From: Pseudomonas sp. FP1742
GTDB taxonomy: Bacteria; Pseudomonadota; Gammaproteobacteria; Pseudomonadales; Pseudomonadaceae
Length of the DNA stretch: 64,000 nucleotides
Assembly: GCF_030687145.1 (NCBI RefSeq)
Contig: NZ_CP117460.1
Span: 4,464,001-4,528,000 of the forward strand
Reading direction: 5' to 3'
Under the pieces are notes generated by a model. It searched no databases and had not been told where the DNA came from. It saw nothing but the letters and a program-made list of their open reading frames with translations. Position numbers and translations under genes: made by a program. Shown in pieces: positions 24,617-55,890 of this stretch; within the stretch, counting starts at the first letter, position 1; every line of letters starts with the position of its first letter.

Positions 24617-24630
24617 GGCGGGATTGAGCC

Positions 24631-26532: not shown

Positions 26533-27876
26533 TTAAATGACTGGCCTTACCGATAGACCGCGACCAATACCATAATAGTCGAATCCATTGGCCTTCATCC
26601 GATGAGGGTCGAATATGTTACGGCCGTCAAATATGACAGGAGTGCTGAGTTTTTCTTTTATAAAATCCAGGTCAGGGGCTTTGAATTCGCGCCATTCTGT
26701 AACAATGACCAGAGCATCGGCACCTTGAAGCGCGGCTTCTTTGGTACCCATTAGCAGCAAGTCTTCATTCATTCCATAAATGCGTTGTGTTTCGGCCATC
26801 GCTTCGGGGTCGAAGGCTTGTATTCTGGCGCCGACACTACGCAACTGCTCAATCAGGACGCGGCTGGATGCTTCGCGCATATCATCTGTATTGGGCTTGA
26901 AAGCCAACCCCCAAATCGCAAATGTTTTGCCCTCCAGATGGCCATTGAAGTGATGTTGGATATGCTCGAACAGATGCTCCTTTTGTCGCTTGTTGACTTC
27001 TTCTACGGCTGACAAAAGTGTTGCTTTATAACCGATCGACGACGCGGTGCGTTCCAGGGCTTGTACATCTTTTGGGAAACAGGAACCGCCATAGCCGCAG
27101 CCCGGGTAGATAAAGTCGTAGCCAATCCTTGGATCAGAGCCAATGCCTTTACGAACGGCCTCAATGTCTGCGCCCAATCGTTCGGCGAAATTAGCCATCT
27201 CATTCATGAATGAAATTTTTGTTGCCAATAGACAGTTGGCCGCATACTTCGTCAGTTCGGCACTTCTGATGTCCATCGTGATAATTTTTTCGTGGTTTCT
27301 GTTGAAAGGTTCATAGAGCTCCCTCATTCGGTCCACCGCGTAACTGCTATCACTGCCTATGATAATTCTATCGGGACGAGTGCAGTCTGCTACCGCAGAA
27401 CCTTCCTTCAGGAACTCGGGGTTGGAGATAACGTGAAACTCCACCTCAAGATCCCGGGACTTCAATACTTCGGAAACTTTAGCCCTGACTTTATCTGCCG
27501 TGCCAACAGGCACAGTAGACTTGTTCACGATGATTTTAGCCTCCGTCATGTTGAGTGCAATGGTGGTGGCAACGGACAGCACATATTTTAAATCAGCGCT
27601 GCCGTCGTCATCTGGAGGCGTACCCACTGCAATGAATTGGATTTCACCATGATGCACACCTTGTGCTGCATCGGTTGTGAAATGTAAACGTCCTGCTTCA
27701 TGGCATTTTTCTACGAGGGCACTTAATCCAGGCTCATAGATAGGAATAATTCCATTCTTCAGATTCTCGACTTTAATAGCGTCGACGTCTACGCAACATA
27801 CGTCATGACCTGCGTCAGCAAGTACAGCCGCCTGCACCAGGCCCACATAGCCTATTCCAAAAACCGTAACATTCAT
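26533..27876 (-). CDS. ugd: UDP-glucose 6-dehydrogenase
   Basis: A 447-residue nucleotide-sugar dehydrogenase: N-terminal Rossmann FGIGYVGLVQAAVLADAGHDV, the SNPEFLKEGSAVADCTRPDRI central motif, the catalytic Cys266 in GYGGSCFPKD and the C-terminal LAFKPNTDDMREASS. It oxidises UDP-glucose (from GalU) to UDP-glucuronate in two steps. The PDRI pattern and context with PssD/PssE support UDP-glucose over GDP-mannose as substrate, though the latter (AlgD-like) cannot be wholly excluded. It is 12 bases after manC and closes the operon. Confidence 0.92.
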   Translation of the reverse strand: MNVTVFGIGYVGLVQAAVLADAGHDVCCVDVDAIKVENLKNGIIPIYEPGLSALVEKCHEAGRLHFTTDAAQGVHHGEIQFIAVGTPPDDDGSADLKYVLSVATTIALNMTEAKIIVNKSTVPVGTADKVRAKVSEVLKSRDLEVEFHVISNPEFLKEGSAVADCTRPDRIIIGSDSSYAVDRMRELYEPFNRNHEKIITMDIRSAELTKYAANCLLATKISFMNEMANFAERLGADIEAVRKGIGSDPRIGYDFIYPGCGYGGSCFPKDVQALERTASSIGYKATLLSAVEEVNKRQKEHLFEHIQHHFNGHLEGKTFAIWGLAFKPNTDDMREASSRVLIEQLRSVGARIQAFDPEAMAETQRIYGMNEDLLLMGTKEAALQGADALVIVTEWREFKAPDLDFIKEKLSTPVIFDGRNIFDPHRMKANGFDYYGIGRGLSVRPVI

Positions 27877-27888
27877 TTCAATAATCCT

Positions 27889-29316
27889 TTAGATGAGTTC
27901 GAGACGGCCATAACGATCTTCAAAACGAACGATGTCATCTTCGCCGAGGTAGGAACCTGATTGAACTTCTATCAATTCAAGAGGGATTCGCCCTGGATTT
28001 TCAAGGGAGTGCACAACCCCAATGGGTATGTAGGTGGATTGGTTTTCGGTCAATAACACCTGTTTGTCAGCAATTTGCACATTGGCGGTGCCTGACACCA
28101 CAATCCAGTGCTCTGCCCGATGATGGTGAAGCTGAACGGAAAGTTTATGCCCCGGCTTCACGGTGATTCGCTTCACTTGATATCTATGCCCTTGGTCCAC
28201 TGAGTCATACTTCCCCCAGGGCCTATAGACTTCACGATGGCTAGCGCCCTCGACTCGATTGTTTTTAGTGAGCTCAGAGACTATTTTCTTGACATCTTGA
28301 GAACGGTCCTTAGTCGTCACCAATATCGCGTCCGAGGTCTCCACAACAACGACGTCACTGATACCTAGAACAGTGACCAGACGGTGGCTGGAGTGAACAT
28401 AGCTGTTGGTAACGCCTTGCAGCAATACATCCCCTTGTGTGCAGTTTTCATTTTCATCCTTCATTCCCGCTTCCCAAACCGAATCCCATGCACCAAGGTC
28501 GCTCCAGCTGGAGTTAAGGATAACGACTGACGCGATGTTGGTTTTTTCCATGACCGCATAATCAATTGACACATTGGGAGCGTTCACGAAGTCTACCTGA
28601 CTGAGTCTTGTGAAGTCCTGGTCATGCGTTGCGTTAGCGAGAGAAAGTTCTGCCGCGACAACGATGTCAGGACTCAAGCGTTCCAGTTCGGATTTCATGA
28701 CGGAAGCCCGGAACATAAACATTCCGCTATTCCAGAAATAATTTCCTTGGGCAAGGTAGCTTTGTGCTGTTTCCAGGTCAGGCTTTTCTACAAAAGCATC
28801 GATGTGCGCAACGCCGTCGGTAGCATCAATTTGAGTACGAATATAGCCATAACCAGTCTCTGGCTTCGTAGGGGCAACCCCGAAGGTGACAATTCTACCT
28901 TTGTTGACTTCCAGCTTCGCCAATGCCAGCGAGGCTTTAAAAGCGTCAACGTCGGTGATGACATGGTCCGCAGCTAAAACCAACAGAATAGGATCATCCC
29001 CGCCCTCCAAAGCTGTCAGTGTCGCAGCGGCTATAGCGGGCGCAGTATTTCGTGCAGAGGGTTCCAATAGTATTTTTTGGGGCTTTACATCCAGCGATCT
29101 GCTTTGCTCGGCCACGATAAAACGATGATCTTCGTTACAAACGATTATCGGAGGACTCAAGCTATCCCCTTCTGCAGACAGACTTTTTACTCGATCCAAA
29201 GTGGCTTGAAACAAACTCAAATCACCGTGTATCGACATAAATTGCTTGGGCTTGAGTGCTCTTGAAAGTGGCCACAGACGCGTGCCTGAGCCACCAGACA
29301 AAATAACTGGAATCAT
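27889..29316 (-). CDS. manC: Mannose-1-phosphate guanylyltransferase / mannose-6-phosphate isomerase
   Basis: A 475-residue two-domain enzyme that supplies GDP-mannose. The N-terminal nucleotidyltransferase has LSGGSGTRLWPLSRALKPKQF and FVEKPD. The C-terminal cupin isomerase domain has RPWGKYDSVDQG, VKPGHKLSVQLHHHRAEHW and VSGTANVQI. Length equals AlgA/ManC. Its presence suggests mannose (or a GDP-mannose derivative) in the repeat unit. 54 bases after pssE. Confidence 0.95.
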   Translation of the reverse strand: MIPVILSGGSGTRLWPLSRALKPKQFMSIHGDLSLFQATLDRVKSLSAEGDSLSPPIIVCNEDHRFIVAEQSRSLDVKPQKILLEPSARNTAPAIAAATLTALEGGDDPILLVLAADHVITDVDAFKASLALAKLEVNKGRIVTFGVAPTKPETGYGYIRTQIDATDGVAHIDAFVEKPDLETAQSYLAQGNYFWNSGMFMFRASVMKSELERLSPDIVVAAELSLANATHDQDFTRLSQVDFVNAPNVSIDYAVMEKTNIASVVILNSSWSDLGAWDSVWEAGMKDENENCTQGDVLLQGVTNSYVHSSHRLVTVLGISDVVVVETSDAILVTTKDRSQDVKKIVSELTKNNRVEGASHREVYRPWGKYDSVDQGHRYQVKRITVKPGHKLSVQLHHHRAEHWIVVSGTANVQIADKQVLLTENQSTYIPIGVVHSLENPGRIPLELIEVQSGSYLGEDDIVRFEDRYGRLELI

Positions 29317-29370
29317 AGCGATTACTCAATAATTAAAAGTTATAGAAAGGTGCCGATAAGCAGCAAAGAT

Positions 29371-29847
29371 TCAGGACGTAAATGATCTTATATAATCGAT
29401 CAAGCGATCTCTTTCTGTGAAATCCAACGGGATTTCAGCATTGTTGTAATTGAGTGCTGAATCAATAGCCGAAAAAAACTCGTCTTTATCATGGGCGATG
29501 AAAACAGATGGAAAGCCCGAAAAATTCTCGACGGTGTCGTACTGATGGTTATTAATGTGTTCACCGCGACTGCTGTCCCGGGGCACGACAACTATTGGCT
29601 TTCCCAATTCAAGCGAGCGAATGATATTACCCATGCCCGCATGTGAGACGACGACTGTTGAGGCGTTGAAGTTTTTGGAAAAAAAAGGCTCGGCTATTGT
29701 CTTGAACGCATTAATGCGGCCCAAGTCCCTTTCGTCATTGCCGACCTGGGCGACAATAGGGACATCAGGGTTTGCATGACTCCATTCGCTTAAATAGCTG
29801 AGCATTCTCTCAAAGGGTGCTTGAGTGCCAACGCTGCAAAATATCAT
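29371..29847 (-). CDS. pssE: PssE/Alg13-like glycosyltransferase subunit
   Basis: A 158-residue protein equal to the C-terminal nucleotide-sugar-binding half of GT28 enzymes: MIFCSVGTQAPFERMLSYL at the start, VSHAGMGNIIRSLELGKPIVVVPRD in the middle and GEHINNHQ. It pairs with the PssD/Alg14-like membrane subunit just upstream; the PssD stop and PssE ATG directly abut. In Rhizobium the PssD-PssE pair adds glucuronic acid to lipid-linked glucose; I infer the same here because ugd and a glucose-initiating transferase are present. Confidence 0.9.
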   Translation of the reverse strand: MIFCSVGTQAPFERMLSYLSEWSHANPDVPIVAQVGNDERDLGRINAFKTIAEPFFSKNFNASTVVVSHAGMGNIIRSLELGKPIVVVPRDSSRGEHINNHQYDTVENFSGFPSVFIAHDKDEFFSAIDSALNYNNAEIPLDFTERDRLIDYIRSFTS

Positions 29848-30303
29848 TTATACAACCCTCCCTTTATACTGAGCCCTGCCGTTTTCCGAAAGAGTGGGCC
29901 ACTGCGTGAGCAATTCATCTACAAAATAAGAAGCGATTCTGCCGGACAGGGAGATTTTTTTAGGATTCGCGATGCTATCAATCCAGAGCGTTTTTTTTCC
30001 CATGATCTTTGCTGTGATCAAACCCAGCAGACCCGGCGCAGCCCCCGTAGAGATGACGTATTTCGCCTTGCTCTGGTAAACGATATTGAAGATTTGATAG
30101 AACCCCTTCATTATCTTGAAGGGCTCACTTCTATTGAAATCGGGAACTTTAACAAAGTCGTGAAGTGGGTACTGTGAGTGAACGCTTGTATCGACGGTGG
30201 CAATGTTGACTTTCTGCCCGTCAAACGCTGGAAGCAGTTTGCTCATTTGTACCCAGTGCCCACCTCCGGAACAAATCAGTAAAACATCATACGATTGATT
30301 CAT
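29848..30303 (-). CDS. pssD: PssD/Alg14-like glycosyltransferase subunit
   Basis: A 151-residue membrane-associated partner of PssE: MNQSYDVLLICSGGGHWVQMSKLL, then VISTGAAPGLLGLITAKIMGKKTLWIDSIA, the standard Alg14/PssD signature with its GGH nucleotide-binding loop. Start at the ATG at 30303, preceded by AAGGGATCCGTC; a longer frame to 30384 is not family-like. It holds PssE at the inner membrane, where the pair is expected to transfer the second sugar. Confidence 0.9.
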   Translation of the reverse strand: MNQSYDVLLICSGGGHWVQMSKLLPAFDGQKVNIATVDTSVHSQYPLHDFVKVPDFNRSEPFKIMKGFYQIFNIVYQSKAKYVISTGAAPGLLGLITAKIMGKKTLWIDSIANPKKISLSGRIASYFVDELLTQWPTLSENGRAQYKGRVV

Positions 30304-30338
30304 GACGGATCCCTTTCTGCCAGGATTAATAGACATCA

Positions 30339-31313
30339 TCAGATGGTAACAGCCGCTTTTAATAATTCCGCTTGCCCCTCCCAACGTGTTATTCGCTTGG
30401 CTTTCAACAAAGCTGATTTTTCTTTATAAAGCTCTTCATTCTCGATGAGTTGAGAAAGCCCAAACTTTATTGACAGAGGGTCTAACGTATCAACAAATAC
30501 AGCCGCGTCCGAAAACAATGAACGCAGCACCGGTGTATTCGAAAGTGCCATCGGCCGGCCGGCGCTAACCGCTTCGTTCGCCACACTCAACTGGACATTG
30601 TCGCGCGTTGTCAGGCCGAGAACGACATTGGCGTTACACAGCAATTGCTCGAAAGTCAACTTACTCAGAAAACCCGTAAGCTTTATATTGTCTGGCATTG
30701 ACGCTATGAGAGCTCCGGATAACTTGCCTCCGTACCTCCCGGTGATAAAAAAGTCTACATTCGGCATTTCTCTGGCTGCCTTAATAACGATTTCTATCGG
30801 CTCGTCGACATCGAAAGAGCAGGGAAAAAGTACGTAAGGTGTCTGATGATCACTGGCAGGGGGAGTATTAAAATCACACGGCAAATCCTCCAGGATAAAA
30901 ATGTTTTCCACATTAACGCCTGAGCGGGCCAACTCCTCTTTGACTTTGAAGTTATGCACCACAACGGCATCGATTTTATTGAGCAAGGACACTGTGCCCG
31001 GGAAGGTTATCCATTGCTTGCGTAACAAACTATTATGCACATCGGCAATAATCTTGAGGCGTCTGTTAATAAAAAACTTATACGCCAGTGCGATGTGCAA
31101 CACAGGGCTCGGTGGTAACTGGACCCAAAGAACCTGTGGCGCACTGACGAAAAGTGATTTAATCGTTTTAAACGCTTTAATCAAATAGTCCAATGGACGT
31201 GCAGATTTTTTTTTGAATTTATTAGGAAGATGCAGAATGTCATACGCCCAATATTGTTTCATTGTGTCGGCGCGTCGTTGATAGCCGACCCATGCGATCA
31301 TTAATGATTTCAC
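30339..31313 (-). CDS. Glycosyltransferase, GT4-like (ALG1-like)
   Basis: A 324-residue glycosyltransferase with GT-B fold. The N-terminal domain has VLWVQLPPSPVLHIALAYKF and the acceptor-side DVHNS. The C-terminal domain has YVLFPCSFDVDEPIEIVIKA and the nucleotide-sugar site VANEAVSAGRPMALSNTPVLR. The closest pattern I recognise is eukaryotic ALG1 (beta-1,4-mannosyltransferase) and its bacterial relatives. With manC in the operon, a GDP-mannose donor is a fair inference, but not shown. It is the only stand-alone glycosyltransferase after PssD/PssE. Confidence 0.82.
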   Translation of the reverse strand: MKSLMIAWVGYQRRADTMKQYWAYDILHLPNKFKKKSARPLDYLIKAFKTIKSLFVSAPQVLWVQLPPSPVLHIALAYKFFINRRLKIIADVHNSLLRKQWITFPGTVSLLNKIDAVVVHNFKVKEELARSGVNVENIFILEDLPCDFNTPPASDHQTPYVLFPCSFDVDEPIEIVIKAAREMPNVDFFITGRYGGKLSGALIASMPDNIKLTGFLSKLTFEQLLCNANVVLGLTTRDNVQLSVANEAVSAGRPMALSNTPVLRSLFSDAAVFVDTLDPLSIKFGLSQLIENEELYKEKSALLKAKRITRWEGQAELLKAAVTI

Positions 31314-31352
31314 TTCTGAATCCTGCGTAAGAAGAGTGATGGAAATGGAGTA

Positions 31353-31895
31353 CTACAATGCAAACCAAATAGGAAAATCAGCGCTGTACTGAATGTTTTT
31401 ATTTCTGAAGCGAATATGTTTAGCCGGATTCCCTCCCGCAATCGAATACGCTTCAATATTGCGCGTGACAACGCTACCGGGATAAACGACTGCACCCTTC
31501 CCTATCGTGACGCCTGGCATAATCATTACACTGGGAAAGATCCATACATTATCTTCAATGACAACCGGCTTCCCGACAGTGCGACTCATGGGGTCATCGA
31601 TATCGTGTCCCAGTGTATAAATTTTTGTGTTATGAGAGATGTTGACGTTGTCGCCGATGCGGATTCCGACCCTGTTATCCATATAGCAGTTGTAATTTAT
31701 GGTGCAATTCTTTCCTACTGAAAACTTTCCAAATGAAAAAAAAATGACCTTTCTATGGACGGTAGTCTTAACGCCGATACGGCATCCCGTTACCCTCAGC
31801 AGTGACCGTCTCAAGCTGAAAAAGAAAACCAGGTTAAGTGCCGAATTAAACAAGGCAACGGCCACCTTCTTGGTGTTGAGCTTCAAGTTCTTCAT
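31353..31895 (-). CDS. Hexapeptide-repeat acyltransferase
   Basis: A 180-residue left-handed beta-helix acyltransferase. Repeats of the [LIV]-G-x4 type run through INYNCYMDNRVGIRIGDNVNISHNTKIYT and VVIEDNVWIFPSVMIMPGVTIGKGAVVYPGSVV. The catalytic His is probably in HDIDDP (DxHD-like: TLGHDIDDP). This is the WcaF/NodL-like O-acetyltransferase pattern, which suggests O-acetylation of the polymer. It abuts the lyase gene without any gap. Confidence 0.88.
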   Translation of the reverse strand: MKNLKLNTKKVAVALFNSALNLVFFFSLRRSLLRVTGCRIGVKTTVHRKVIFFSFGKFSVGKNCTINYNCYMDNRVGIRIGDNVNISHNTKIYTLGHDIDDPMSRTVGKPVVIEDNVWIFPSVMIMPGVTIGKGAVVYPGSVVTRNIEAYSIAGGNPAKHIRFRNKNIQYSADFPIWFAL

Positions 31896-32759
31896 TTAGT
31901 TACCTGCGCCATGCCCCGATGTATTAGCGATGCGATGTGAACTCATTACAAAATTTCTGAACTGAATATTGGTGCTGGCAGGCGTGGCGAAGGACGCGTT
32001 ATTTCCACCGAAGAAAGTAGAGAACAACAATCCATCGATCGTCAGGTTTTTAGTGTCTCTGAACGTCAGCCCGGTTTCAGAGTGCACCAGTTTCCTATCG
32101 TACCAAATAGAAATCACGCCATCGGCGCGACCCGGTGTATTCAACTTTACGAGTTGCTCTAATGTATGCCACTCGCCGACACTAAAGGTCCAGGAACCCA
32201 GGCCTATTGCTGTTCCCCATGTTTTACTGGTGGGCAAATAAGCATAGATTGCACCAACGCCATTTTCTTTCCATATGTAGCGAGTGGAAAAGCCATCATG
32301 GCCATTAGGTATTTTCCCTCCTGTATTGCCTGTACCGCCGTAGAGACCTGGAAGCTTTCCGCCCTTTACAAAGTTAAAGTTCTTATCGAATTTCAATTCA
32401 TAAGTAAGAACCAGGCATTCTCTACCCGGCTGCTTGAGCCTGGATTTGAATTCAATCCCCCCATAGGGCAAACCCAACCGGACCATAGAACCTGGATCGT
32501 ACGACCCGGCGGGATAATGTACCGTAATGTCTTTTATTTCATTACTGTAAGCCTTGTTTGTTAAATTGGCGCTGCCTTTTATATTGTCGTGTTCGTCGCT
32601 ATTGCGATGACGGCCGGCGAACCCCTGTGAAACATCTGGAAGGGATGGATAGATGTTTTCAATACTTTGCTCGCAGCGGTCAGTTATGTCGGATGCACTG
32701 CTCATAGCCACATGCAGAGAGAAGGCTAAGGTGAGTAGCGCCGAGGCTTTTTTTTTCAC
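31896..32759 (-). CDS. Secreted polysaccharide lyase, PL14-like
   Basis: A 287-residue protein with a signal peptide (VKKKASALLTLAFSLHVAMSSA) and a jelly-roll beta-sandwich with features of family PL14: VLTYELKFDKNFNFVKGGKLPGLYGG, RYIWKENGVGAIYAYLP, and SVGEWHTLEQLVKLN. PL14 lyases cut alginate or glucuronan, that is uronic-acid polymers, which fits the predicted glucuronate in this polymer. In such loci a lyase trims or releases chains in the periplasm. GTG at 32759 has GAGAGGGG upstream; the longer frame to 32900 overlaps the pyruvyltransferase gene and lacks a signal peptide. Confidence 0.75.
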   Translation of the reverse strand: MKKKASALLTLAFSLHVAMSSASDITDRCEQSIENIYPSLPDVSQGFAGRHRNSDEHDNIKGSANLTNKAYSNEIKDITVHYPAGSYDPGSMVRLGLPYGGIEFKSRLKQPGRECLVLTYELKFDKNFNFVKGGKLPGLYGGTGNTGGKIPNGHDGFSTRYIWKENGVGAIYAYLPTSKTWGTAIGLGSWTFSVGEWHTLEQLVKLNTPGRADGVISIWYDRKLVHSETGLTFRDTKNLTIDGLLFSTFFGGNNASFATPASTNIQFRNFVMSSHRIANTSGHGAGN

Positions 32760-32778
32760 GTCAGTGGCCCCTCTCGTT

Positions 32779-33930
32779 TTATTTTTTATCGACCCACGCC
32801 AAAAAATCATCAACGGCATTTTGGGCGATGGATGATCGCTGTGAAATCTCTTGCTTGAGGTGCTCTGCCATTTGCTCTTTGGCTTGCCTGAATTCGCCAA
32901 TGGTCGCGATCATCAGGTTATGGTCAGGAGCGCTGACCAGTTTGGTGCCGCGAGGAAGCATCTCATGTACTTTCTTTAGCTTGTTTTCGATCTCAACTGC
33001 AATGGTTGGATAACCTAAGGAAGCCGGCAAAAGCACACCGTGCGCCCTGGCGCTGATAATGACATCGGACTCAACGATCAATTTCGCCATGAACGTCTCT
33101 GGCGTGTCGATGGCGGCATCCCAGCACAACCATTCAAACGTGTGGTGCTTATCGATAAGGTGCTGGTCACGTTCTTTATACAGTGACACCAGACGAACCT
33201 GCTCTCCACGCTTGGACAATTCATGAGCGGCCTGCACCATCGCCTCGATGAATTTTTGCCCATTCGCATCATGCGGCCAATCCCGCAGGATAAATGACAG
33301 GTATTTGTTCTTATTTACGCTGTTTATCTTCAGATCGGTATTAGAGATCCATAGGTCGGAAAGCAAGGTCGGATCGGTGTACACATCTACATCCGATTTT
33401 CCAAATGCATTGCAATGCTTTTGGCTTGTACCATCCCTGACGGAAATATAGTCACAACGATTAATGACATTGACTGCGCGAGTCAGCGGCTTGCCGCCAC
33501 CATCAAACGGGCCTAAACCGATACAGAATGCAGCAAGACGACGATGGAAGAATATTTTGTCTATCCCGCCGCGCATCCCTACATACAATCGTAAAAGTGT
33601 GGACTTCAAATCGGTTTGGGCTTTTATGCTCTTGTAGAGCTTTGACACTTTAAGTTGAATTGAGGACGCCTTCCTGGCGGGAGGAATGAACGAGAAAAAC
33701 TGACCACCTCCGCCTAAAACAACCAGATCGGCTTTGACAGGTTCCTTGATATGCAACCATTTTATGCGTGGGTTAAAGTTTTTGGCGACAGCTGGATGAT
33801 CCACACCCACTGCAATGTCCGACTCTTTGAATCTTTTCTTCAGAATATTGATGACACACAACATCAATATATCATCACCTAGATTACCTGGGCCGTAAGC
33901 ACCCCGGATATAAACTTTACTGGAATTCAT
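32779..33930 (-). CDS. Polysaccharide pyruvyl transferase family protein
   Basis: A 383-residue protein with the PF04230 pattern: MNSSKVYIRGAYGPGNLGDD at the start, LVVLGGGGQFF, the RAHGVLLPASLGYPTIAVEI nucleotide/PEP-site segment and SVRDGTSQKH. The family uses phosphoenolpyruvate to add ketal pyruvate to sugar hydroxyls, giving acidic polymers. The exact sugar is unknown. It overlaps wzx by four bases. Confidence 0.88.
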   Translation of the reverse strand: MNSSKVYIRGAYGPGNLGDDILMLCVINILKKRFKESDIAVGVDHPAVAKNFNPRIKWLHIKEPVKADLVVLGGGGQFFSFIPPARKASSIQLKVSKLYKSIKAQTDLKSTLLRLYVGMRGGIDKIFFHRRLAAFCIGLGPFDGGGKPLTRAVNVINRCDYISVRDGTSQKHCNAFGKSDVDVYTDPTLLSDLWISNTDLKINSVNKNKYLSFILRDWPHDANGQKFIEAMVQAAHELSKRGEQVRLVSLYKERDQHLIDKHHTFEWLCWDAAIDTPETFMAKLIVESDVIISARAHGVLLPASLGYPTIAVEIENKLKKVHEMLPRGTKLVSAPDHNLMIATIGEFRQAKEQMAEHLKQEISQRSSIAQNAVDDFLAWVDKK

Positions 33931-35387
33931 GCTGGGCTTCCAATTTCTACGGGTTCATTGAACATAGTGTTCAAGGTAAATGTTGTCGCTAGAATATATA
34001 TAAATATCACGACCACGATCATCAATCGATACAAGGCACTTTCAACGTAAGAACTTGAGATAAAACTGACGAAAGGCAATGTCCACAGGATCAATATCCT
34101 GGGGGAGATAAGCAACTCCAAGGGCAATATTTTTTTGTATATGAAATAGGGTAAGCCTAGCAGGAAGTGTATTAATTGCGAGCCAATGAATGCTTTGGCA
34201 ATGCCGATGGCGCCTTCCTCCCTCAGGAGCAGGGCTCCGGATATGAACAATACACCCCACAGAATATTACTCATGACGCTGTACCAGGCTAAATCCATCA
34301 CGATCATTTTTCTTGAAATGCCGGATTTAAATGCACTTAGCAGCGAGCCCAGAATGACCAACGTCAATGTTATTTCAAAATCCCGTCCAGGAAAGCTATT
34401 TCCATAGAGCTTGGCCAGCAGTTCGGGGAACATGATAACTGGCTGTATAATAATCAGTACGACTAACCAGCCTGATAAAAAATTCAAGGCATCTAATTTC
34501 CGGCTTTTACCTCCCAGCATTGCCGCTAGCATGGGGACAAGCACGGAGCCTAATACCACAGAAACATGTGAAAATATTGCATTCCACTGCATGGCGGCTG
34601 CGTACATACCTAACGCGGCGAGCCCGTTACTTGTTTCCGCCAGCAATTTATTCGCAAACCAATTCATTGGCGCGACCATCAACCCGGTCAGTAACACCGG
34701 GAGTCCGACCGAAAGAACGGTATGCTTTTCAGTCAATGCACCTATGAAATTCAGCGCAGTGTTCTTTGCCTTTAGTATTTTCCAGCATGCAAGCGCGCTA
34801 AAGAACACGATTAGCAGTTGGGAGCAAGCCAACCCCAGCAGCGCACCATTGAGTCTGAATTTTGTCGTCAGGACGTAAGTTGCGGGGATCGCGACGATGG
34901 CGATAATTCCATTGATCGTCGCAATAGACCGATATTGCCCCCAGCCGGTTAAACACCCTTGGGTCCATCCAGATAAAATGATCAACGTGATGGTACTCAA
35001 TACAATCAGTGATACATATTTCAGGTTGTCGGAGCCGAGAATGATGGTGGAAAAGAAATGCGGAAAAAACAGCGCAATACCGATGATCATAAAACTAAAG
35101 GACAAGGAAAAAATCAGCGTTAAAGCGATACCCCTGCCCGTTTTTTCGGGGGAGGTGTCTTTAAATTGACCAATATGCTTCGCCGTCGCCGTGGTTGTGG
35201 CCTGGGCTGCGACATTGGCGAGCATGACAATGGCACTTTGTATCAGGCCATATTCTCCAAATGATTGTGCGCCCAATACTCTGGCAACCAGTATGCCGGT
35301 AATGACAACCGAGACTTTCGTGGCCACCGCAGATATGAAACTCCATGCAGTACTGGACGCGAATCTTTTCAACAGCGTGTTATTCAT
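33927..35387 (-). CDS. wzx: Oligosaccharide flippase (Wzx-like)
   Basis: A 486-residue inner-membrane protein with about 12-14 hydrophobic helices and the MATE/PST superfamily pattern of Wzx: the N-terminal FASSTAWSFISAVATKVSVVITGILVARVLGAQSFGEYGL is diagnostic. It moves the lipid-linked repeat unit across the inner membrane for Wzy. The 3' end overlaps the pyruvyltransferase, and the start overlaps the wzy stop by four bases, so these three are translationally coupled. Confidence 0.9.
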   Translation of the reverse strand: MNNTLLKRFASSTAWSFISAVATKVSVVITGILVARVLGAQSFGEYGLIQSAIVMLANVAAQATTTATAKHIGQFKDTSPEKTGRGIALTLIFSLSFSFMIIGIALFFPHFFSTIILGSDNLKYVSLIVLSTITLIILSGWTQGCLTGWGQYRSIATINGIIAIVAIPATYVLTTKFRLNGALLGLACSQLLIVFFSALACWKILKAKNTALNFIGALTEKHTVLSVGLPVLLTGLMVAPMNWFANKLLAETSNGLAALGMYAAAMQWNAIFSHVSVVLGSVLVPMLAAMLGGKSRKLDALNFLSGWLVVLIIIQPVIMFPELLAKLYGNSFPGRDFEITLTLVILGSLLSAFKSGISRKMIVMDLAWYSVMSNILWGVLFISGALLLREEGAIGIAKAFIGSQLIHFLLGLPYFIYKKILPLELLISPRILILWTLPFVSFISSSYVESALYRLMIVVVIFIYILATTFTLNTMFNEPVEIGSPA

Positions 35388-36655
35388 CTGGCTTTAACCT
35401 GTAAGGATGGGGCTATCAGCGGTTGATGAAAGGTCAGTATTTTTTTACGTTGCCTGGCAGCGTGCTCCGAAAAGACACGTAAAATAATTGCGCTATAAGC
35501 GATTCCGATAGCGTACGGCTGATAAGGCGTGGCCGACACGATAAACATCAGCCCCAGAAAGGTGGCTATTGATACCGCGACCTGATTTTTTAAATGATGG
35601 GCAAGGGACGTAATAAATATGAACAGCAAGTACAAGCCGATCACCCCATACTTGACGAAGTATGTTAAGTACGCACTGTCGATATTCGAGTTTTTGTCAT
35701 CGAGACCACGGTATTCAAACCAGGGGATTTCAAAAGGGGTTCCGGCCCCTAGCCCGACAAAGTAGTGCATTGGATTCATGTTGCTTATCAAGTCCAGCGC
35801 AGGGCTGAAGCGAGTGGTTAACTGAACCGCCAGGCCTTCGGACGATAAAGCATCATTGATTCGATCAGCACCGATCATATTGCTGATTCCAATGAAAGCC
35901 ATCAGTACGATTGAACCTAGTAGTATGACACCTATCATTCGGGCAGGTTTTGTATACTGATGAATAATGATAGCTGCAAAAACAGAAACAAAAATGAATC
36001 TTGAGTTGGCGATGAACAAACAGATGAATGAAGTCATCAAACAGATCCTCGCCAGATTTTTCTTATCCTCAAACAGTCGGGGATCGATGAAGTAATATAT
36101 TAAATATGCAACGGCTGCATACGTGCCGCCATCCAGGTATCTGTAGGCGTTTTCTTCATAATAGACGTCTTGAAAACTGTACAGACCCAATCGCAGCCAG
36201 GCGATGTCCAATACATTGAAAGCTGTCATTGCAATCAATATTTTCAGTATCGTTTGCAGCGTCAAGGTTTTCGCCGCGAGCGTGGCGACATTCGTCAGCA
36301 CTATAAATGACAGGATCATTATGAACGGCCGAACGTCCTTTAATAAGTATTTGTTCGGAGAACCTATCAGGCCGCACGCGAGCAACACTACATACAGTCC
36401 ACATCCAAAAAGAAGTCCGGCAGGCACCGTTAATTGAGATCGCTGTGTCACGGCCTGCCTTATCAGCAAGGCACTGAGTGCGCCAGCTATATAGAAATCA
36501 AAAAAATAGATGCCTTTGAGCGAGATTATTTCGCTGTATGAGTTTCCGGTAGGGATCACAGATAACATTATGCCCAAAAATACTATGGAGTATTTTGGGT
36601 TTTTTACTGCAAGCAAACCCGCTGACAGGGCGACAAGAGATAACAGGTAGAACAT
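35384..36655 (-). CDS. wzy: O-antigen/EPS polymerase (Wzy-like)
   Basis: A 423-residue membrane protein with ten or more hydrophobic helices. The large periplasmic loop (about 285-330) ends GLGAGTPFEIPWFEYRGLDDKNSNIDSAYL and is followed by FVKYGVIGLYLLF, as in O-antigen ligase/polymerase proteins. It joins flipped repeat units. The sequence before the ATG (CATAAAGAATACC) has no good ribosome binding site, but an ops element lies 37 bases upstream (see 36692). First gene of the long operon. Confidence 0.85.
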   Translation of the reverse strand: MFYLLSLVALSAGLLAVKNPKYSIVFLGIMLSVIPTGNSYSEIISLKGIYFFDFYIAGALSALLIRQAVTQRSQLTVPAGLLFGCGLYVVLLACGLIGSPNKYLLKDVRPFIMILSFIVLTNVATLAAKTLTLQTILKILIAMTAFNVLDIAWLRLGLYSFQDVYYEENAYRYLDGGTYAAVAYLIYYFIDPRLFEDKKNLARICLMTSFICLFIANSRFIFVSVFAAIIIHQYTKPARMIGVILLGSIVLMAFIGISNMIGADRINDALSSEGLAVQLTTRFSPALDLISNMNPMHYFVGLGAGTPFEIPWFEYRGLDDKNSNIDSAYLTYFVKYGVIGLYLLFIFITSLAHHLKNQVAVSIATFLGLMFIVSATPYQPYAIGIAYSAIILRVFSEHAARQRKKILTFHQPLIAPSLQVKAR

Positions 36656-36863
36656 GGTTTGGTATTCTTTATGCTGATGTTGTCATTTGACACGCTACCG
36701 CCCCAGGATTTTTCGTTCATTCCCTGAAAACGTGGCTTCTGTTGGTCTGCAGTGCTGTGTATCTATATTCCAAACATCGACATGGCTAAGGATTCCAGGG
36801 CGCAGCTTCATTCCCTGGTATCCTGTTTATGCCGTTCATGACCATGCAGCGTAACGATCTACA
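36656..36863 (-). promoter_or_regulatory. JUMPstart-like leader of the wzy-ugd operon
   Basis: 208 bases between wzc and wzy. Read on the minus strand, the region contains CCTGGGGCGGTAGCGTG, nearly the same as the E. coli JUMPstart core (CCAGGGGCGGTAGCGTG). A short palindrome TGTCAAATGACA follows at 36681-36692. A separate promoter may lie near 36760-36790, but I cannot fix it; the operon may also be read from the wzb promoter through wzc. Confidence 0.7.
36692..36702 (-). promoter_or_regulatory. ops element (RfaH recruitment site)
   Basis: The minus strand reads GGCGGTAGCGT, an exact match to the 11-base ops consensus. In enterobacteria RfaH loads onto RNA polymerase paused here, suppresses termination and recruits ribosomes. 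An rfaH gene lies at 41530 in the same locus. Confidence 0.9.
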
Positions 36864-39092
36864 TCAGCTTCGATCAGACTGGTACTCGTATTGGTAATAC
36901 CCATAATTACCGTAGCCATATTTTGCTGACGCTTTCTTTTCAACCCCGTTGAAAATGGCGCCTCTCAGCACGATGCCGTTTTGCGCAAATCGGCGAATGG
37001 TGAGTTCTATTTCCTTTGCAGGATTCAAGCCGAACCGCGCGACGATCAGGTTTGTTCCCGATTGCCTTCCCACAATCGCCGCATCTGTCACGGCCAATAA
37101 CGGCGGCGTATCCAGAATGACCAAGTCATACATTTCGCTGACCTGTGACAATAGTTCGGTGAGGTTTCGGTGCATCAGCAATTCAGAGGGATTTGGCGGT
37201 ATCTGCCCACGAGTAATGAGGTCGAGGTTCTCGATATCGGTTTTGTGAATTGCGGTTTGAAGCGTGCATCGATTGACGAGGACATCGGAAAGTCCATCGT
37301 TAACAGGCACACCTAATACCTTGTGCAGGTAGCCCCTTCGCATATCGATGTCAATCAACAATACCCGCTGTCCGGTCTGGGCGATTACCGCGGCCAGGTT
37401 GACAGACACGAAGGTTTTTCCAACCTTTGGACTCGGGCCCGAGATCATGATTCGGTTATTGGTGGATTCGAGCATGGCGAAATGCAGACTGGTGCGCAAA
37501 CTACGCAATGCCTCAACAGCCAGGTCGGTGGGATGACTGACGGCCAGCAAAGAAGAACCTTTACTGGAACGTCCTCGTCCGCCGAAGACTTTATCTTCTT
37601 CGGCCTTCTGCAGAGTGCTGTAAGGAATCGACGAGTACACCGGCAAACCAAGGTGCTCGATGGCTTCCGGACTTTCCAGCCCCCGGTTCAGCGCCTTGCG
37701 TACCAACACCAGGGCCACTGCCAAGAAACCGCCAAGAAGCGTGGCGATCAATACAATCAAGATTTTTTTCGGTTTGACCGGTTTTAAGAAGTTGACGTCC
37801 GCAGTATCGATCAGCCGCACGTTACCGACGGTCCCCGCACGCATCACGTCCAGCTCCTGAGACTTGTTCAGCAGTTGGGTATAAATGGCTGTACCGACCT
37901 CCACATCCCGGGTCAGGCTGAGCAGTTCCTGCTGTGTGGAGGGAAGTCCTTCCACCTTGGTCGCCAGGCTTTTCTGCTTGCTGCTCAACTCACCGATCTG
38001 GGTCAACAATGCACGATAGGCAGGATGTTGGCGGGTGAACTTGCGGTCCATCTCGGCTTGCTGCAACTTCAACTCGGAAATGCTGGTATCGAGCCCGACT
38101 ATCTGATCGAGAATGGCTTTGGTTTCCAGCGTAATGTCCACGGACTTGCTGCGTGTCTGGTACTCATTCAAGGCATTACCGGCTTTCTCCAGGTCCTTCT
38201 TGACCACCGGAAGTTGCTCTTTGAGAAATGCCAGGCTCTGCGCGGCTTCCGCTGAAGTTCGCTCTACGTTTTGCCGCACATAAATAGCAGCAATTTCATT
38301 GAGGATGTTGATGGCCTGATCCGGATCTGTACTTTCCAGCGCCAGACCAATCATGCCTGATTCTTTTCCACGCTCGGCGACATCCAGTGCGTCCTGGTAG
38401 TCGAGGATGCTGTTCAGGCGGGAGTTACGGATTATTCTGAAACGGGTTCCAGGATTGGCGCGCATTTCCTCTATCTGAAATGCAACGCCATTCTGCTCGA
38501 AGAGTTGCCCCGCCTGGCTGGCCGCCAACAGATTGTCATCCTCATCCACCAACGTGAAATGACCATTCTCACCCGCGGTCAGGGTCAATTTCTTGCCCAG
38601 TTGCGAGTCGGGCAGATCGAGTTTGAATATCTTCAGCGACTCCCCTCCCCAGGCGTAACTATTCAGTCCCAACCATGGTTCGGCTATTTCATCGGGATTA
38701 CTTTTTTTGAATCGACGCGCCAGGAATTCGCCGACAACCGGGAAATACATCGGCTGTATGACAACATCAAGTTTCAAGTTGTCGACGGTTTTACCAATCA
38801 CTGAACGGGACTGGATCAACTCGATCTCGGTGGCCGACGGAGACTCCTTGCCCAACATGCCGCCGATATCCGAGAAACCCAGCAAATCATTCTTTTTCGC
38901 TTCGACCTGCAGCAGCGCATTCGCCTGAAATACCGGGGTCGCCAGCACCGCGTACGCGGCCCCGGTCACCATGAAGGCACCGGTAATCGCAGCGATCAGC
39001 CATTTATGGTCGATAAGTGTTCCAAACAAGCCGAGAAGATCAATCTCGTCATTGTTGTCGTCCCGCACGTTGACTACCGGTGCTTGCTGCAT
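36864..39092 (-). CDS. wzc: Wzc-like polysaccharide co-polymerase and tyrosine kinase
   Basis: A 742-residue inner-membrane protein. The Wzz domain sits between helices at about 33-51 and 443-464, with a large periplasmic coiled-coil region (about 280-420). The cytoplasmic BY-kinase has Walker A SGPSPKVGKT (551-560), Walker A' LLIDIDMRRG (578-587) and a tail with seven tyrosines in the last 24 residues (KYGYGNYGYYQYEY). It controls chain length and export with Wza; the tail is phosphorylated and reset by Wzb just upstream. Confidence 0.95.
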   Translation of the reverse strand: MQQAPVVNVRDDNNDEIDLLGLFGTLIDHKWLIAAITGAFMVTGAAYAVLATPVFQANALLQVEAKKNDLLGFSDIGGMLGKESPSATEIELIQSRSVIGKTVDNLKLDVVIQPMYFPVVGEFLARRFKKSNPDEIAEPWLGLNSYAWGGESLKIFKLDLPDSQLGKKLTLTAGENGHFTLVDEDDNLLAASQAGQLFEQNGVAFQIEEMRANPGTRFRIIRNSRLNSILDYQDALDVAERGKESGMIGLALESTDPDQAINILNEIAAIYVRQNVERTSAEAAQSLAFLKEQLPVVKKDLEKAGNALNEYQTRSKSVDITLETKAILDQIVGLDTSISELKLQQAEMDRKFTRQHPAYRALLTQIGELSSKQKSLATKVEGLPSTQQELLSLTRDVEVGTAIYTQLLNKSQELDVMRAGTVGNVRLIDTADVNFLKPVKPKKILIVLIATLLGGFLAVALVLVRKALNRGLESPEAIEHLGLPVYSSIPYSTLQKAEEDKVFGGRGRSSKGSSLLAVSHPTDLAVEALRSLRTSLHFAMLESTNNRIMISGPSPKVGKTFVSVNLAAVIAQTGQRVLLIDIDMRRGYLHKVLGVPVNDGLSDVLVNRCTLQTAIHKTDIENLDLITRGQIPPNPSELLMHRNLTELLSQVSEMYDLVILDTPPLLAVTDAAIVGRQSGTNLIVARFGLNPAKEIELTIRRFAQNGIVLRGAIFNGVEKKASAKYGYGNYGYYQYEYQSDRS

Positions 39093-39138
39093 AAGTCGGA
39101 TTCTTTGCCTTGATTACGATTCAAAAAGGAAGTGGCCA

Positions 39139-39579
39139 TCAGCGTGCGAGACGCTGTGCCCATGCGTGTACGGCTTCTTCGATCAACGCATAAGCGTGCA
39201 CAAAAGCAGGTTTACCTTGACGGTAGGGGTCGCTGATTTCGCGATCGTCCTGCCATTTCCCCAGCAGCAACACTTTGCCTCGCGCCTCGGGGGCAATGTC
39301 GAGCACGCCGCTGACATGGCGCCGCTCCATCACCAGAACCAGGTCCGCCTCACTGACGGCTTGAGGCGTGAGTTGAACGGCCTGGTGCTCGTGAGGTACA
39401 TGACCATGCTCCTTGAGTACGGCGTGTGCCGTCGGCTCGATGGGCTTGCCCGCCAAGGCGGCAAGGCCAGCCGAGCTGACCTGGATATCGGAATGAACGA
39501 GTGCCCCGCGTAGCAAATGCTCCGCGGTGGGGCTGCGGCATATATTGCCGACACAGACAATCAAAACCCTTTTAAGCAA
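39139..39579 (-). CDS. wzb: Low-molecular-weight protein-tyrosine phosphatase (Wzb-like)
   Basis: A 146-residue phosphatase with the P-loop VCVGNICRSPTAE near the N-terminus, holding the nucleophilic Cys and Arg, and the general acid Asp in SDPYRQG near the C-terminus. It dephosphorylates Wzc. I chose a TTG start at 39579: it gives the usual three residues (MLKR) before VLIVCVGN, and GGGGAATG lies upstream. An ATG at 39633 is an alternative that adds 18 residues not found in the family. 46 bases before wzc, same operon. Confidence 0.9.
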   Translation of the reverse strand: MLKRVLIVCVGNICRSPTAEHLLRGALVHSDIQVSSAGLAALAGKPIEPTAHAVLKEHGHVPHEHQAVQLTPQAVSEADLVLVMERRHVSGVLDIAPEARGKVLLLGKWQDDREISDPYRQGKPAFVHAYALIEEAVHAWAQRLAR

Positions 39580-40218
39580 GATAACATTCCCCGTCTTGTC
39601 AACATTGGCGGTGACATAGCACTTGCCGAACATAAGAGCTTTAAACTACGAATGAACCCGGGGCATCTATATCCCCGGTAACTGCAGCTGAAACTTTCAA
39701 AATCATCAGTGCGTATTTATTACCATGACGTTTGAATGCCCCCCAACTTTTTCTCCAGACAAAAAATAACAATCCACTCTTCGACACATTGAAAATAACA
39801 GTCGGCAAACTTATCCAGACAATTTCTAACAGTTGTCGTTTTCCTGCGATCATTCAATCTAAATTACACGAAAATAGCGAATGGCTAATGTATGGCCGTT
39901 CCGCTAGTGCATGGCCAGGGTGTCAGACATTCGGTTAGTAGTTGGGTAGGGTCGCCTTGGGCAACAACTTTAATAACATCGGGTTACGTCAGGAGCCTGC
40001 CGAGGAACAACCGGCTGCTCGATATTTCCCTTGCCAGCCCCCGGCGACAAGCATGACGCCCTGGCCTTTCGCAGTGCCTTTGCCGTTGCGAGCATTTTTC
40101 TCGAGTGATCGGACCGCTTCGAGTCCGCACTCCCCAGCGTGACCGGTTCGCCCAGCCTGGGTCGAATCTTTCCTACTGCCATTAGTCACTCCATCAGTCT
40201 ACTTTCAAGGACGCTTCC
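39580..40218. promoter_or_regulatory. Divergent promoter region of wzb-wzc and galU
   Basis: 639 bases between leftward wzb and rightward galU. The part near wzb (39657-39900) is AT-rich and should hold the EPS promoter; it has a CCGGGG...CCCCGG hairpin at 39657-39677 in the wzb leader. The part near galU is GC-richer with short open frames on both strands that I do not accept as genes. No repeats or tRNA seen. Confidence 0.45.
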
Positions 40219-41052
40219 ATGATTCGTAAATGCCTGTTCCCCGCCGCCGGCTATGGAACCCGCTTCTTGCCAGCCACCAAGGCCATGCCGAAGGAGATGC
40301 TGCCGATCGTCAATAAGCCGCTGATCCAGTATGCCGTCGAGGAAGCACGCGACGCCGGCCTGCAACATATGGCCATCGTCACCGGCCGTGGCAAACGGGC
40401 GCTGGAGGATCATTTCGATACCAGCTACGAGCTGGAACACCAGATTCGTGGCACCGACAAGGAAAGGTTCCTGCACGGCACCCGCGAACTGATTGATACC
40501 TGCAGTTTTTCCTATACTCGTCAGGTAGAGATGAAGGGCCTGGGGCACGCCATTCTCAGCGGCCGCTCGTTGATCGGTGATGAACCCTTCGCCGTCGTGC
40601 TGGCCGATGACCTGTGCCTGAACCTTGAGGGTGATGGCGTACTGGCGCAAATGATCAAGCTCTACGAGCAGTTCCGCTGCTCGATCGTGGCGATCCAGGA
40701 AGTGCCCCGCGAGCAGACTCAGAAATATGGCGTGATTGCCGGCGAGTTGATTCGCGAGGGGATTTACCGGGTCAACAGCATGGTCGAAAAGCCCCGCCCG
40801 GAAGACGCTCCGTCCAACCTGGCAATCATCGGTCGATACATTCTGACCCCGGATATCTTCGATCTGATCGCTGACACCGAACCTGGCAAGGGCGGTGAAA
40901 TCCAGATCACCGATGCGCTGATGAAGCAGGCCCAGAACGGTTGCGTACTGGCCTACCAGTTCAAGGGCCAACGCTTCGATTGTGGCGGCGCCGAAGGTTA
41001 CATCGAAGCCACCAACTTCTGCTTCGAGCACCTGCATCAAAACACGCTGTGA
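40219..41052 (+). CDS. galU: UTP--glucose-1-phosphate uridylyltransferase
   Basis: A 277-residue GalU with the full signature: FPAAGYGTRFLPATKAMPKEMLPIVNKPLIQYAVEEA, LEDHFDTSYELE, VVLADDLCL and VNSMVEKPRPEDAPSN. It makes UDP-glucose, the donor for WcaJ-type initiation and the substrate for Ugd. Pseudomonads keep galU as a housekeeping gene; here it is embedded in the EPS locus and may be either the sole copy or a dedicated one. AAGGACGCTTCC precedes the ATG. Confidence 0.96.
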   Translation: MIRKCLFPAAGYGTRFLPATKAMPKEMLPIVNKPLIQYAVEEARDAGLQHMAIVTGRGKRALEDHFDTSYELEHQIRGTDKERFLHGTRELIDTCSFSYTRQVEMKGLGHAILSGRSLIGDEPFAVVLADDLCLNLEGDGVLAQMIKLYEQFRCSIVAIQEVPREQTQKYGVIAGELIREGIYRVNSMVEKPRPEDAPSNLAIIGRYILTPDIFDLIADTEPGKGGEIQITDALMKQAQNGCVLAYQFKGQRFDCGGAEGYIEATNFCFEHLHQNTL

Positions 41053-41101
41053 TGTTGCTGTCCCCCGATATGGTCTTTATTACCCTATGGATGAAGCCTC
41101 T

Positions 41102-41530
41102 ATGAATACGTTGAGCGGTTTCAAGGCAGATGGCAGTCGCCACCCGTATGGCGCTGACCTTAAGCACAGCCTCGCGTACCGCATCGTGCGCGCCTATGCA
41201 TCGGAACTGATTTTCCCCCGCGTGCAAAAACCACCGGTACTGCTGGTGGAACGCATCGGCGCGTTCCCCTCCTCCGGGGAGATCCGCCGCCCGGTCAAGG
41301 ATGGCCCGGCGCTGCTGACAAGCATCAAGCAGCGTTACGCCGCCGATGCCCTGGACCTCAACGAGAGCGACGGACTGAACCTGGTCTTTGCCGACTGGCG
41401 CTTCAGCTTGCGCCTCTGGGGCAAGGGCTGCGGGGTTTGCCTGACCGTGGAAAGTCGCGGCGACCATTCGCTCCTGCAGCGCAAGACCACCGAACTGCTG
41501 GAGCAGATCGATGCGCAGGAGGCATTTTGA
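41102..41530 (+). CDS. Phosphomannomutase C-terminal-domain fragment
   Basis: A 142-residue protein whose second half matches only the C-terminal domain of CpsG/ManB phosphomannomutases. It has IKQRYAADALDLNESDGLNL and FADWRFSLR, then TVESRGDHSLLQRKT as in VESRGDKALMEAKT of CpsG. The substrate-phosphate loop RSSNTEP is replaced by RLWGKGCGVC, and the catalytic, metal-binding and sugar-binding domains are absent. It is kept open with normal codon use and overlaps rfaH (ATGA), so it is translated or recently decayed. A start at 41087 is possible. It cannot be a working mutase alone. Confidence 0.7.
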   Translation: MNTLSGFKADGSRHPYGADLKHSLAYRIVRAYASELIFPRVQKPPVLLVERIGAFPSSGEIRRPVKDGPALLTSIKQRYAADALDLNESDGLNLVFADWRFSLRLWGKGCGVCLTVESRGDHSLLQRKTTELLEQIDAQEAF

Positions 41531-42036
41531 TGAACGCGATGGCAGAACACTCCACCAAAGCCTGGTACCTGCTCCAGTGCAAGCCCAAACAAGATGAACG
41601 CGCCGAAGAACATTTGCAGCGCCAGGGCTATGCCTGTTTTCGCTCGACCTACAGGCGTGAGCGCGTTTTGCGCGGGCAGCGCCGGGTGATCAGCGAGTCG
41701 CTGTTTCCAGGCTATCTGTTTATTCAGCTGAGCCTTCAGGACAGTTGGGGCCCTCTGCGCTCGACCCGTGGTGTTTCGCGGGTCGTCGGGTTCGGCGGTC
41801 AGCCACTGCCGATCCGCGACACGCTGATTGACGAACTTCAGGAACGGGACAGCCAGGCGATCGTGACAACCTTGTTGGAACACGGAGATGCGGTGCGCAT
41901 CACGGAAGGCCCGTTCTGCGATCTCGAAGCGGTGTTCCTGGCCATGGATGGCGAAGAACGGGTGCTGTTGATGATGAGTTTCCTGCAGCGTGAGCAGCAA
42001 ATCAGCCTGCCGCTGGCGCGGGTCAACAAGCTTTAG
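41530..42036 (+). CDS. rfaH: Transcription antiterminator RfaH
   Basis: A 168-residue NusG paralogue. The NGN domain has AWYLLQCKPKQDERAEEHLQRQGYACF, RRVISESLFPGYLFIQL and TRGVSRVVGFGG (instead of the GxGGxxxP loop of NusG). The C-terminal KOW region (GDAVRITEGPFCDLEAVFLAMDGEERVLLMMSFL) ends with ISLPLARVNKL as in E. coli RfaH. It binds RNA polymerase paused at ops sites, and an exact ops element lies before wzy in this locus. Start at 41530, overlapping the stop of the mutase fragment. Confidence 0.92.
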   Translation: MNAMAEHSTKAWYLLQCKPKQDERAEEHLQRQGYACFRSTYRRERVLRGQRRVISESLFPGYLFIQLSLQDSWGPLRSTRGVSRVVGFGGQPLPIRDTLIDELQERDSQAIVTTLLEHGDAVRITEGPFCDLEAVFLAMDGEERVLLMMSFLQREQQISLPLARVNKL

Positions 42037-42057
42037 ATCTATTAACGCCCACACCAG

Positions 42058-42084
42058 AACGCCGCTCAACAAGCGGCGTTTTTT
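42058..42084 (+). terminator. Rho-independent terminator after rfaH
   Basis: AACGCCGCT pairs with AGCGGCGTT around CAACA, followed by TTTTTT. It lies 22 bases past the rfaH stop codon and ends the galU-rfaH transcript. Confidence 0.9.
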
Positions 42085-42100
42085 ATCAACACAGAAAACC

Positions 42101-55689: not shown

Positions 55690-55890
55690 GATCGGGTTTG
55701 GTAGCCCGCCGTCCACATCGCATAGCTTCACCTTATGCAGGTGCTTTCAGCATTTGTTTTTATGGTGGCCATGCGCAGGGTGCCCTCGGGCACGCCGGTT
55801 TTTCCATGTGGGCCGGTCTACCAACCTTCGTATGGCCACCACCTCTTCGTTTGGTAGCGAGAGTGATGGCTCCTCTAATCACATATGGAG
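55690..55890 (+). ncRNA. Candidate structured RNA leader of the DUF6124 gene
   Basis: TGGTGGCCATGCG at 55763-55775 pairs with CGTATGGCCACCA at 55829-55841 (13 bp with one G-U). Inside lies GTGCCC-TC-GGGCAC. CTACCAAC at 55818 can pair with either GTTTGGTAG at 55849 or with the GGTTTGGTAG at 55695, which would be alternative structures. It ends just before the ribosome binding site of the DUF6124 gene. I recall similar leaders before DUF6124 genes of other Pseudomonas but have not verified this. Confidence 0.55.

Follow-up and report, generated by a model that had tools for sequence, protein, structure and literature searches.

Linked rfaH genes and ops elements in polysaccharide loci of Pseudomonas sp. 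FP1742 and related genomes

RfaH recruitment is known in molecular detail only for Escherichia coli, where, according to passages in Zuber 2018 (PMC5995543), RNA polymerase pauses at U11 of the ops element and the protein reads the loop bases G4, G5 and T6. Here we report an exact ops element and an rfaH gene in one polysaccharide locus of Pseudomonas sp. FP1742 (RefSeq assembly GCF_030687145.1, contig NZ_CP117460.1, positions 4,464,001 to 4,528,000). This whole stretch of 64,000 nucleotides is called the window, and positions are counted from its first letter. By analogy with E. coli, the locus very probably carries its own dedicated RfaH/ops antitermination module, which would drive the operon from wzy to ugd; the wider result is that RfaH genes are paired with linked, structured ops elements on a genus-wide scale and in a lineage-specific manner.

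Parts of PMC7593976 deal with the occurrence of RfaH in Pseudomonadaceae, with losses and duplications of the protein and with the envelope genes beside it; the main-text sections on RfaH distribution give no ops sites for this family. An RfaH-domain protein was proposed as activator of an exopolysaccharide (EPS) locus of Pseudomonas stutzeri (passages in PMC5532660); the term ops is absent from the main text of that article. A stem-loop in the JUMPstart element is described in a part of PMC2864571, and in the portion of the open-licence full-text literature covered here neither ops in Pseudomonas nor a JUMPstart pseudoknot was described.

The ops site and RfaH protein of the window

The minus strand carries the exact ops 11-mer GGCGGTAGCGT at 36692-36702. 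The twelfth base of ops (G, 36691) also fits, which gives the 12-mer GGCGGTAGCGTG (minus strand, 36702-36691) and places U11, the pause position, at 36692. The site lies in the 208-bp gap between the end of wzc (36864) and the start of wzy (36655), upstream of a long surface-glycan operon. A first-pass annotation made from the sequence had pointed out this 11-mer, a JUMPstart-like context around it (CCTGGGGCGGTAGCGTG) and an rfaH gene about 5 kb away in the same polysaccharide locus; match and context are present exactly as it described, and rfaH is found at 41530-42036 on the plus strand, at a distance of 4.8 kb.

Motif counting alone was rejected as evidence, since 99 Pseudomonas genomes contain 178 copies of the 12-mer and 198 of its reversed control, which is no excess. 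The exact 11-mer occurs seven times in the 6.67-Mb genome; of the six other copies, five lie inside open reading frames (ORFs) that are 387-500 aa long, and the sixth, L001, lies inside ORFs of only 107 and 101 aa. The window copy is covered by no ORF of at least 100 aa, and at the genome's own rate the chance of a sense-strand copy in the 208-bp gap is about 1e-4. What sets the window ops apart is its place and the conserved element of about 42 nt that surrounds it, not the bare motif.

The rfaH gene encodes a protein of 168 aa (class A, see below) that exceeds both curated equivalog cut-offs, with 172.5 bits for TIGR01955 (cut-off 144.5) and 139.5 bits for NF006534 (cut-off 124), and its best Protein Data Bank (PDB) matches are to E. 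coli RfaH (E 7.5e-28). The residues of the ops pocket and its contacts named in a part of PMC5995543 (K10, H20, R23, Q24, R73) and the autoinhibition residues named in a part of PMC7593976 (E48, I93, F130) are all identical to those of E. coli; position 20 is N, not H, in many other class A proteins. The genome has two further NusG-domain genes, one of which is taken for nusG. A second RfaH of this genome, at 3620502 (class B), is also above the RfaH equivalog cut-offs.

The conserved element, its linkage to rfaH and its RNA pairing

A lack of conservation in orthologous loci had been named in the first-pass annotation as a result that would speak against its proposal. Conservation was in fact found: in a set of rfaH loci from named genomes (the 80 best among 140 found), 60 loci contain the 12-mer, with 66 occurrences in all, and the reversed control is absent from the 1.55 Mb. 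The consensus of the long conserved element around ops is CGTTCTCAGGAAAnnnACGnTAAATCCTGGGGCGGTAGCGTG. In 24 of the 80 loci the element is located as in the window, on the opposite strand and 3-5 kb before the rfaH start; in the alternative placement it is on the rfaH strand and downstream of the gene, where ops mostly follows the end of the rfaH match by 70-660 bp and, in L029, by 5.9 kb.

A model of the element (R1) was built from 69 of 70 sites, including the window sequence and excluding L074:11359, whose upstream half differs. In the window it covers 36689-36742 on the minus strand (65.4 bits), which we take as the extent of the whole Pseudomonas JUMPstart-like element; this is its single match in the genome (E 2e-16, the window sequence being among the 69 training sites). 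With strict filters, R1 matched 35 of 199 Pseudomonas genomes at E <=1e-3. Three matches are marginal (G073, G144, G191; E 4.8e-4 to 8.4e-4), and those genomes have NusG only. Each of the 32 genomes with a strong element (E <=8.6e-6) has an RfaH-like hit beyond NusG; where these hits were compared with labelled proteins, class A was the nearest, and the rest share 63-94% identity with the window protein, with partial hits in G035 and G125. No strong element was found in any of the 199 genomes that has only other paralogs or only NusG. The genomes are related and not independent, and a p-value is therefore omitted for the co-occurrence.

The linkage of rfaH and ops that the first-pass annotation had proposed to look for in Pseudomonas genomes is common: for 33 of the 34 strong copies, element and that rfaH share a contig and are no more than about 6.5 kb apart (compared by hand). 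The remaining copy, in G132 (L184:8001-8053), is 1.1 Mb from rfaH and precedes Epimerase_2 and UDPG-dehydrogenase genes, so that action in trans is possible too and this site is a candidate trans target. With one strong element in the FP1742 genome, the earlier description of a locus-borne, self-contained module fits; the linkage it noted is real, but it is common in Pseudomonas and not peculiar to this locus. Likewise, ops is exact, but the signal is the longer JUMPstart-like element, perhaps pseudoknotted, and not bare ops. Decay was seen in three genomes: the rfaH hits of G125 and G060 have a stop codon and are accompanied by a changed ops (GGACGGCAGCGTG and GGCGGTAGCGAG, respectively), and the rfaH hit of G035 is truncated, yet the ops core is kept (GGCGGTAGCATG).

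Outside Pseudomonas, two copies of the element were observed near an rfaH in a metagenome-assembled genome of the Cellvibrionales (L070). In 369 gammaproteobacterial genomes, the Rfam JUMPstart model RF01707 gave two matches with strict filters, both sub-threshold, and the 14-mer GGGGCGGTAGCGTG gave seven non-own matches, none with the upstream element (by eye). A 231-bp query had no match in plasmids.

From comparative sequence analysis, the RNA upstream of ops is predicted to form a hairpin, perhaps an H-type pseudoknot. The predicted hairpin P2 (7 bp; 36702-36728, minus strand) pairs a 5' arm at 36722-36728 (CUCAGGA) with a 3' arm at 36702-36708 (UCCUGGG), and its last pairs are 10-11 nt upstream of the RNA end at U11. 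The predicted helix P1 (4 bp; 36714-36732, minus strand) pairs CGUU just 5' of P2 (36729-36732) with AACG in the P2 loop (36714-36717), and the two helices cross, as in an H-type pseudoknot. In alignment A1 (61 distinct rows), 95.6% of the cells of the whole structure are paired, versus 23-56% when slid. Alignment A3 has 85 rows (77 distinct), namely 69 sites and 16 hand-picked from 37 further matches; L169 and L127, which are decayed or weak, were omitted, as were repeats and near-repeats. Here, 96.6% of the P2 cells (18-72% when slid) and 92.9% of the P1 cells (11-60% when slid) are paired, with double-sided changes in three of seven and three of four pairs, respectively. The number of cells with a double-sided change exceeded all 500 shuffles for P1 and for P2; the count of further pair types in P1 is unremarkable, being reached by 196 of the 500. 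When the pairs are mapped on the rfaH tree (64 loci), changes of both partners within one branch are few and the support from the tree is thin: such changes occur once each for pairs 14-28 and 19-39 and twice each for 20-38 and 22-36; pair 12-30 has four, two of which give non-pairing T-T, and pair 15-27 has none and moves via U-G.

In the E. coli K-12 leaders of rfb and waaQ the upstream hairpin can form, and by eye the same knot is possible with other letters (CAGU-GCUCUGG-UAGCUG-UAAAG-CCAGGGG in rfb, CAGU-AUUCAGG-UAGCUG-UUGAG-CCUGGGG in waaQ). According to passages in PMC11001881, the ops pause of E. coli is distinct from one stabilised by a hairpin, and backtracking is reported for RfaH-bound complexes; what an RNA fold would add is therefore a longer pause, or a block to backtracking.

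Other RfaH lineages, cassette joints and the surrounding genes

The wider comparison comprised 142 loci (the window, the best 80 loci, the genome's own second paralog and further fetched loci), which yielded 138 RfaH proteins of at least 130 aa; L168, L169, L170 and L184 have none of this length. Extra upstream sequence was obtained for 20 loci that had shown no site or an edge site or that called for a check, so that class C loci were searched further; it revealed class C sites in 16, a repeat of a known site in L153 and none in three. With classes defined by site position as well as by letters, 78 proteins belong to class A, 30 to class B and 26 to class C; the four without a site are L012 (contig cut short), L030, L071 and L166. 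In class B, a TGCGGTAGCTTTG-type site precedes its own rfaH by 180-420 bp and lies within the leader of the same-strand operon. The second paralog of FP1742 is of this type, and beta-barrel, Wzc-like and sugar-transferase genes come after it; the class B motif (a 13-mer with fixed last C) has four copies in this genome, only one of them at rfaH-B. Class C sites share the strand of rfaH and precede it by 2.5-8 kb or more; 18 of the 26 loci have a pair of sites, spaced 56-119 bp, and eight have a single one.

On the FastTree tree of the proteins, the element class changes twice, the minimum for three classes; class B is one clade (30/30), class C is one clade (26 and the siteless L166), and class A is the remainder and not a clade of its own. 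A stem score of at least 10 before ops was found in 71 of 73 distinct class A sites, 18 of 24 class B sites and 42 of 44 class C sites, with mean scores of 14.3, 9.5 and 12.6 versus 6.1, 5.8 and 7.0 in a single-letter shuffle control. The core CGGTAGC is identical in all three classes, and a separate ops code for each RfaH class is not claimed. Residue 23 (R/Q) was also considered as determinant of the site class and proved imperfect, since L084 and the class B protein of FP1742 keep R.

Cassettes downstream of the element can switch at this point. Upstream, L017 resembles L015 (wzc 90%, gap 85%, element 100% identical); downstream of the element, it is 87% identical to the window versus 50% to L015. 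L046, L048, L050 and L174 contain repeated copies (259-380 bp) of the 3' part of rfaH plus element; measured from the ops 12-mer, the repeat extends 5 bp further in L046, L050 and two of three L048 pairings, 38 bp in the other L048 pairing and 11 bp in L174. The first gene after class A elements is in seven of ten cases a polysaccharide or sugar-nucleotide gene, encoding a flippase, epimerase, dehydrogenase, nucleotidyl- or sugar-transferase; the others are a beta-barrel porin (L065, with a Wzc-like gene further on), a beta-CASP hydrolase (L031) and an oxidoreductase (L056).

In the window, the first gene past ops is the wzy-like polymerase gene (35384-36655, minus strand; Pfam Wzy_C/DUF6369). 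Its Shine-Dalgarno is weak, with an anti-Shine-Dalgarno duplex of -0.9 kcal/mol that is second weakest among 12 gene starts tested; the weakest is that of the PL14 gene (0.4), whose TTG start is doubtful. The rest of the presumed target operon (26533-35387, minus strand), identified with Pfam and delimited by spacing and strand, consists of wzx, a pyruvyl transferase gene, the PL14 lyase gene, a hexapeptide transferase gene, a gene at 30339-31313 whose product had no match in the Pfam search, Alg14 and GT28-C genes, manC and ugd. The PL14 (polysaccharide lyase family 14) domain at 31896-32900 (minus strand, 188 bits) thus lies within a synthesis operon. Downstream of ugd, Wza, GfcC-like and YjbH-family genes (21094-25743, minus strand) form a group-4-like capsule export set, which may belong to the same transcript as ugd. 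Upstream of ops, wzc and wzb occupy 36864-39633 on the same strand. A galU-like gene and a 142-aa ORF (together 40219-41530, plus strand) precede rfaH; the ORF (41102-41530) overlaps the start of rfaH (ATGA) and has no Pfam match, and by eye it resembles a lone phosphomannomutase C-terminal domain. A C4 antisense RNA, usually a phage immunity RNA, is present at 55758-55846 on the plus strand (RF01695, 78.6 bits) and also in L058.

Proposed mechanism and comparison with known systems

Pausing, recruitment, antitermination and ribosome recruitment are carried over here from E. coli RfaH. RNA polymerase arriving from the wzb-wzc side would transcribe the 208-bp gap and pause at ops U11, and the nascent RNA just behind it would fold at the exit channel into a hairpin, possibly a pseudoknot. 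The locus's own RfaH would read the ops loop in the non-template strand, open and stay bound to RNA polymerase, exclude NusG and Rho from the ten-gene wzy-ugd operon, and help the ribosome to start at wzy, whose Shine-Dalgarno is almost nil.

Several observations weigh against this mechanism or parts of it. A promoter scan of 36600-42100 gave no sigma-70-like site. AlphaFold2, which returned one state (mean predicted local distance difference test score 80.7, predicted template modelling score 0.57), models the KOW domain as strands and not as the autoinhibited helical hairpin, a prediction that neither demonstrates nor excludes a fold switch. Folding energies are not better than those of shuffled sequences (eight leaders, z from -1.70 in L029 to 0.76 in the window), so that the argument for an RNA structure is drawn from comparative pairing only. 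A check by protein alone showed that class A RfaH and the element do not occur in exactly the same genomes: G164 has a class A-like RfaH with an ops 614 bp from its start that scores only 21.9 bits with R1, and in G156 the class A-like hit is partial and no element was found. L030 and L071 encode a class A-like RfaH and have no element in the stretch searched. Finally, the second RfaH of the genome might also act at the window ops.

This last point leads to the alternative that the two RfaH proteins are interchangeable, so that the window ops also recruits the class B paralog (3620502) and the module is not private. We consider this rather unlikely, and it would be compatible with the favoured mechanism. 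The class B site keeps the core with the G4, G5 and T6 read by E. coli RfaH and differs only in its flanks, and class B RfaH keeps K10, Q24 and R73; against interchangeability speak the absence of strong class A elements from genomes with only other paralogs and the mere two changes of element class on the RfaH tree. A role of the hairpin as a pause or attenuator that works independently of RfaH is improbable: a hairpin behind ops in all three classes would agree with such a role, but the site is not listed in the terminator scan, and element and rfaH are damaged together in two genomes (G125, G060). The mosaic structure of L017 and the tandem copies ending 5-11 bp, once 38 bp, past ops would suit an element that is only a recombination joint, conserved through cassette exchange rather than regulation; pure homology, however, needs neither pairing kept through changes nor an invariant ops core nor a tie to RfaH class, and we regard this explanation as very improbable. 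A chance match to ops with rfaH as a bystander would agree with the bare motif being no commoner than its reversed control, but is made practically negligible by conservation, including that in orthologous loci, position and linkage.

Beyond the antitermination module, we offer a tentative joint proposal, which we regard as possible and somewhat short of probable: that the heart of JUMPstart, in Pseudomonas and E. coli, is an H-type pseudoknot forming in the exit channel exactly at ops U11, so that DNA hairpin and RNA pseudoknot together time RfaH loading; that each Pseudomonas RfaH lineage owns its ops variant; and that rfaH plus element is a portable head for new polysaccharide cassettes. 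Pseudomonas is a second genus in which protein and signal can be paired, with three natural site variants, two of them in one cell. Such natural variants of a paired protein and signal make it possible to test directly how ops is recognised, whether RfaH paralogs cross-talk and what the upstream half of JUMPstart does, and the cassette joint suggests how bacteria might exchange surface glycans while keeping expression control.

Among known systems, LoaP is a NusG paralog that serves long polysaccharide or antibiotic operons. UpxY of Bacteroides is likewise a NusG paralog of long polysaccharide operons and is encoded inside its target operon (part of PMC7593976). The window protein is below the family cut-offs of both, with 69 of 100 bits for UpxY and 44.8 of 125 bits for LoaP. 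The RfaH clusters CL2-CL8 described in sections of Wang 2020 (PMC7593976) are similar in that RfaH genes stand beside envelope and EPS genes. JUMPstart (RF01707) is similar as an element of about 39 nt upstream of polysaccharide genes, with ops at its end and a stem-loop just upstream. In Pseudomonas, a conserved stem-loop just upstream of ops is present as P2, by comparative pairing, with a different sequence and unsupportive energy; the upstream half of the window element differs in sequence and scores 19.5 bits, below the gathering cut-off of 35, whereas K-12 rfb scores 60 bits. The Rfam drawing shows a 5-bp stem only; the crossing helix is proposed here, and E. coli CAGU/GCUG would fit it (two leaders, by eye). 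E. coli RfaH/ops at rfb and waaQ shares the protein family, ops, the contact residues, the kind of target and a possible upstream hairpin. E. coli rfaH, however, is unlinked and has several targets in trans (passages in PMC7593976), whereas in the window rfaH and the single strong element share one locus.

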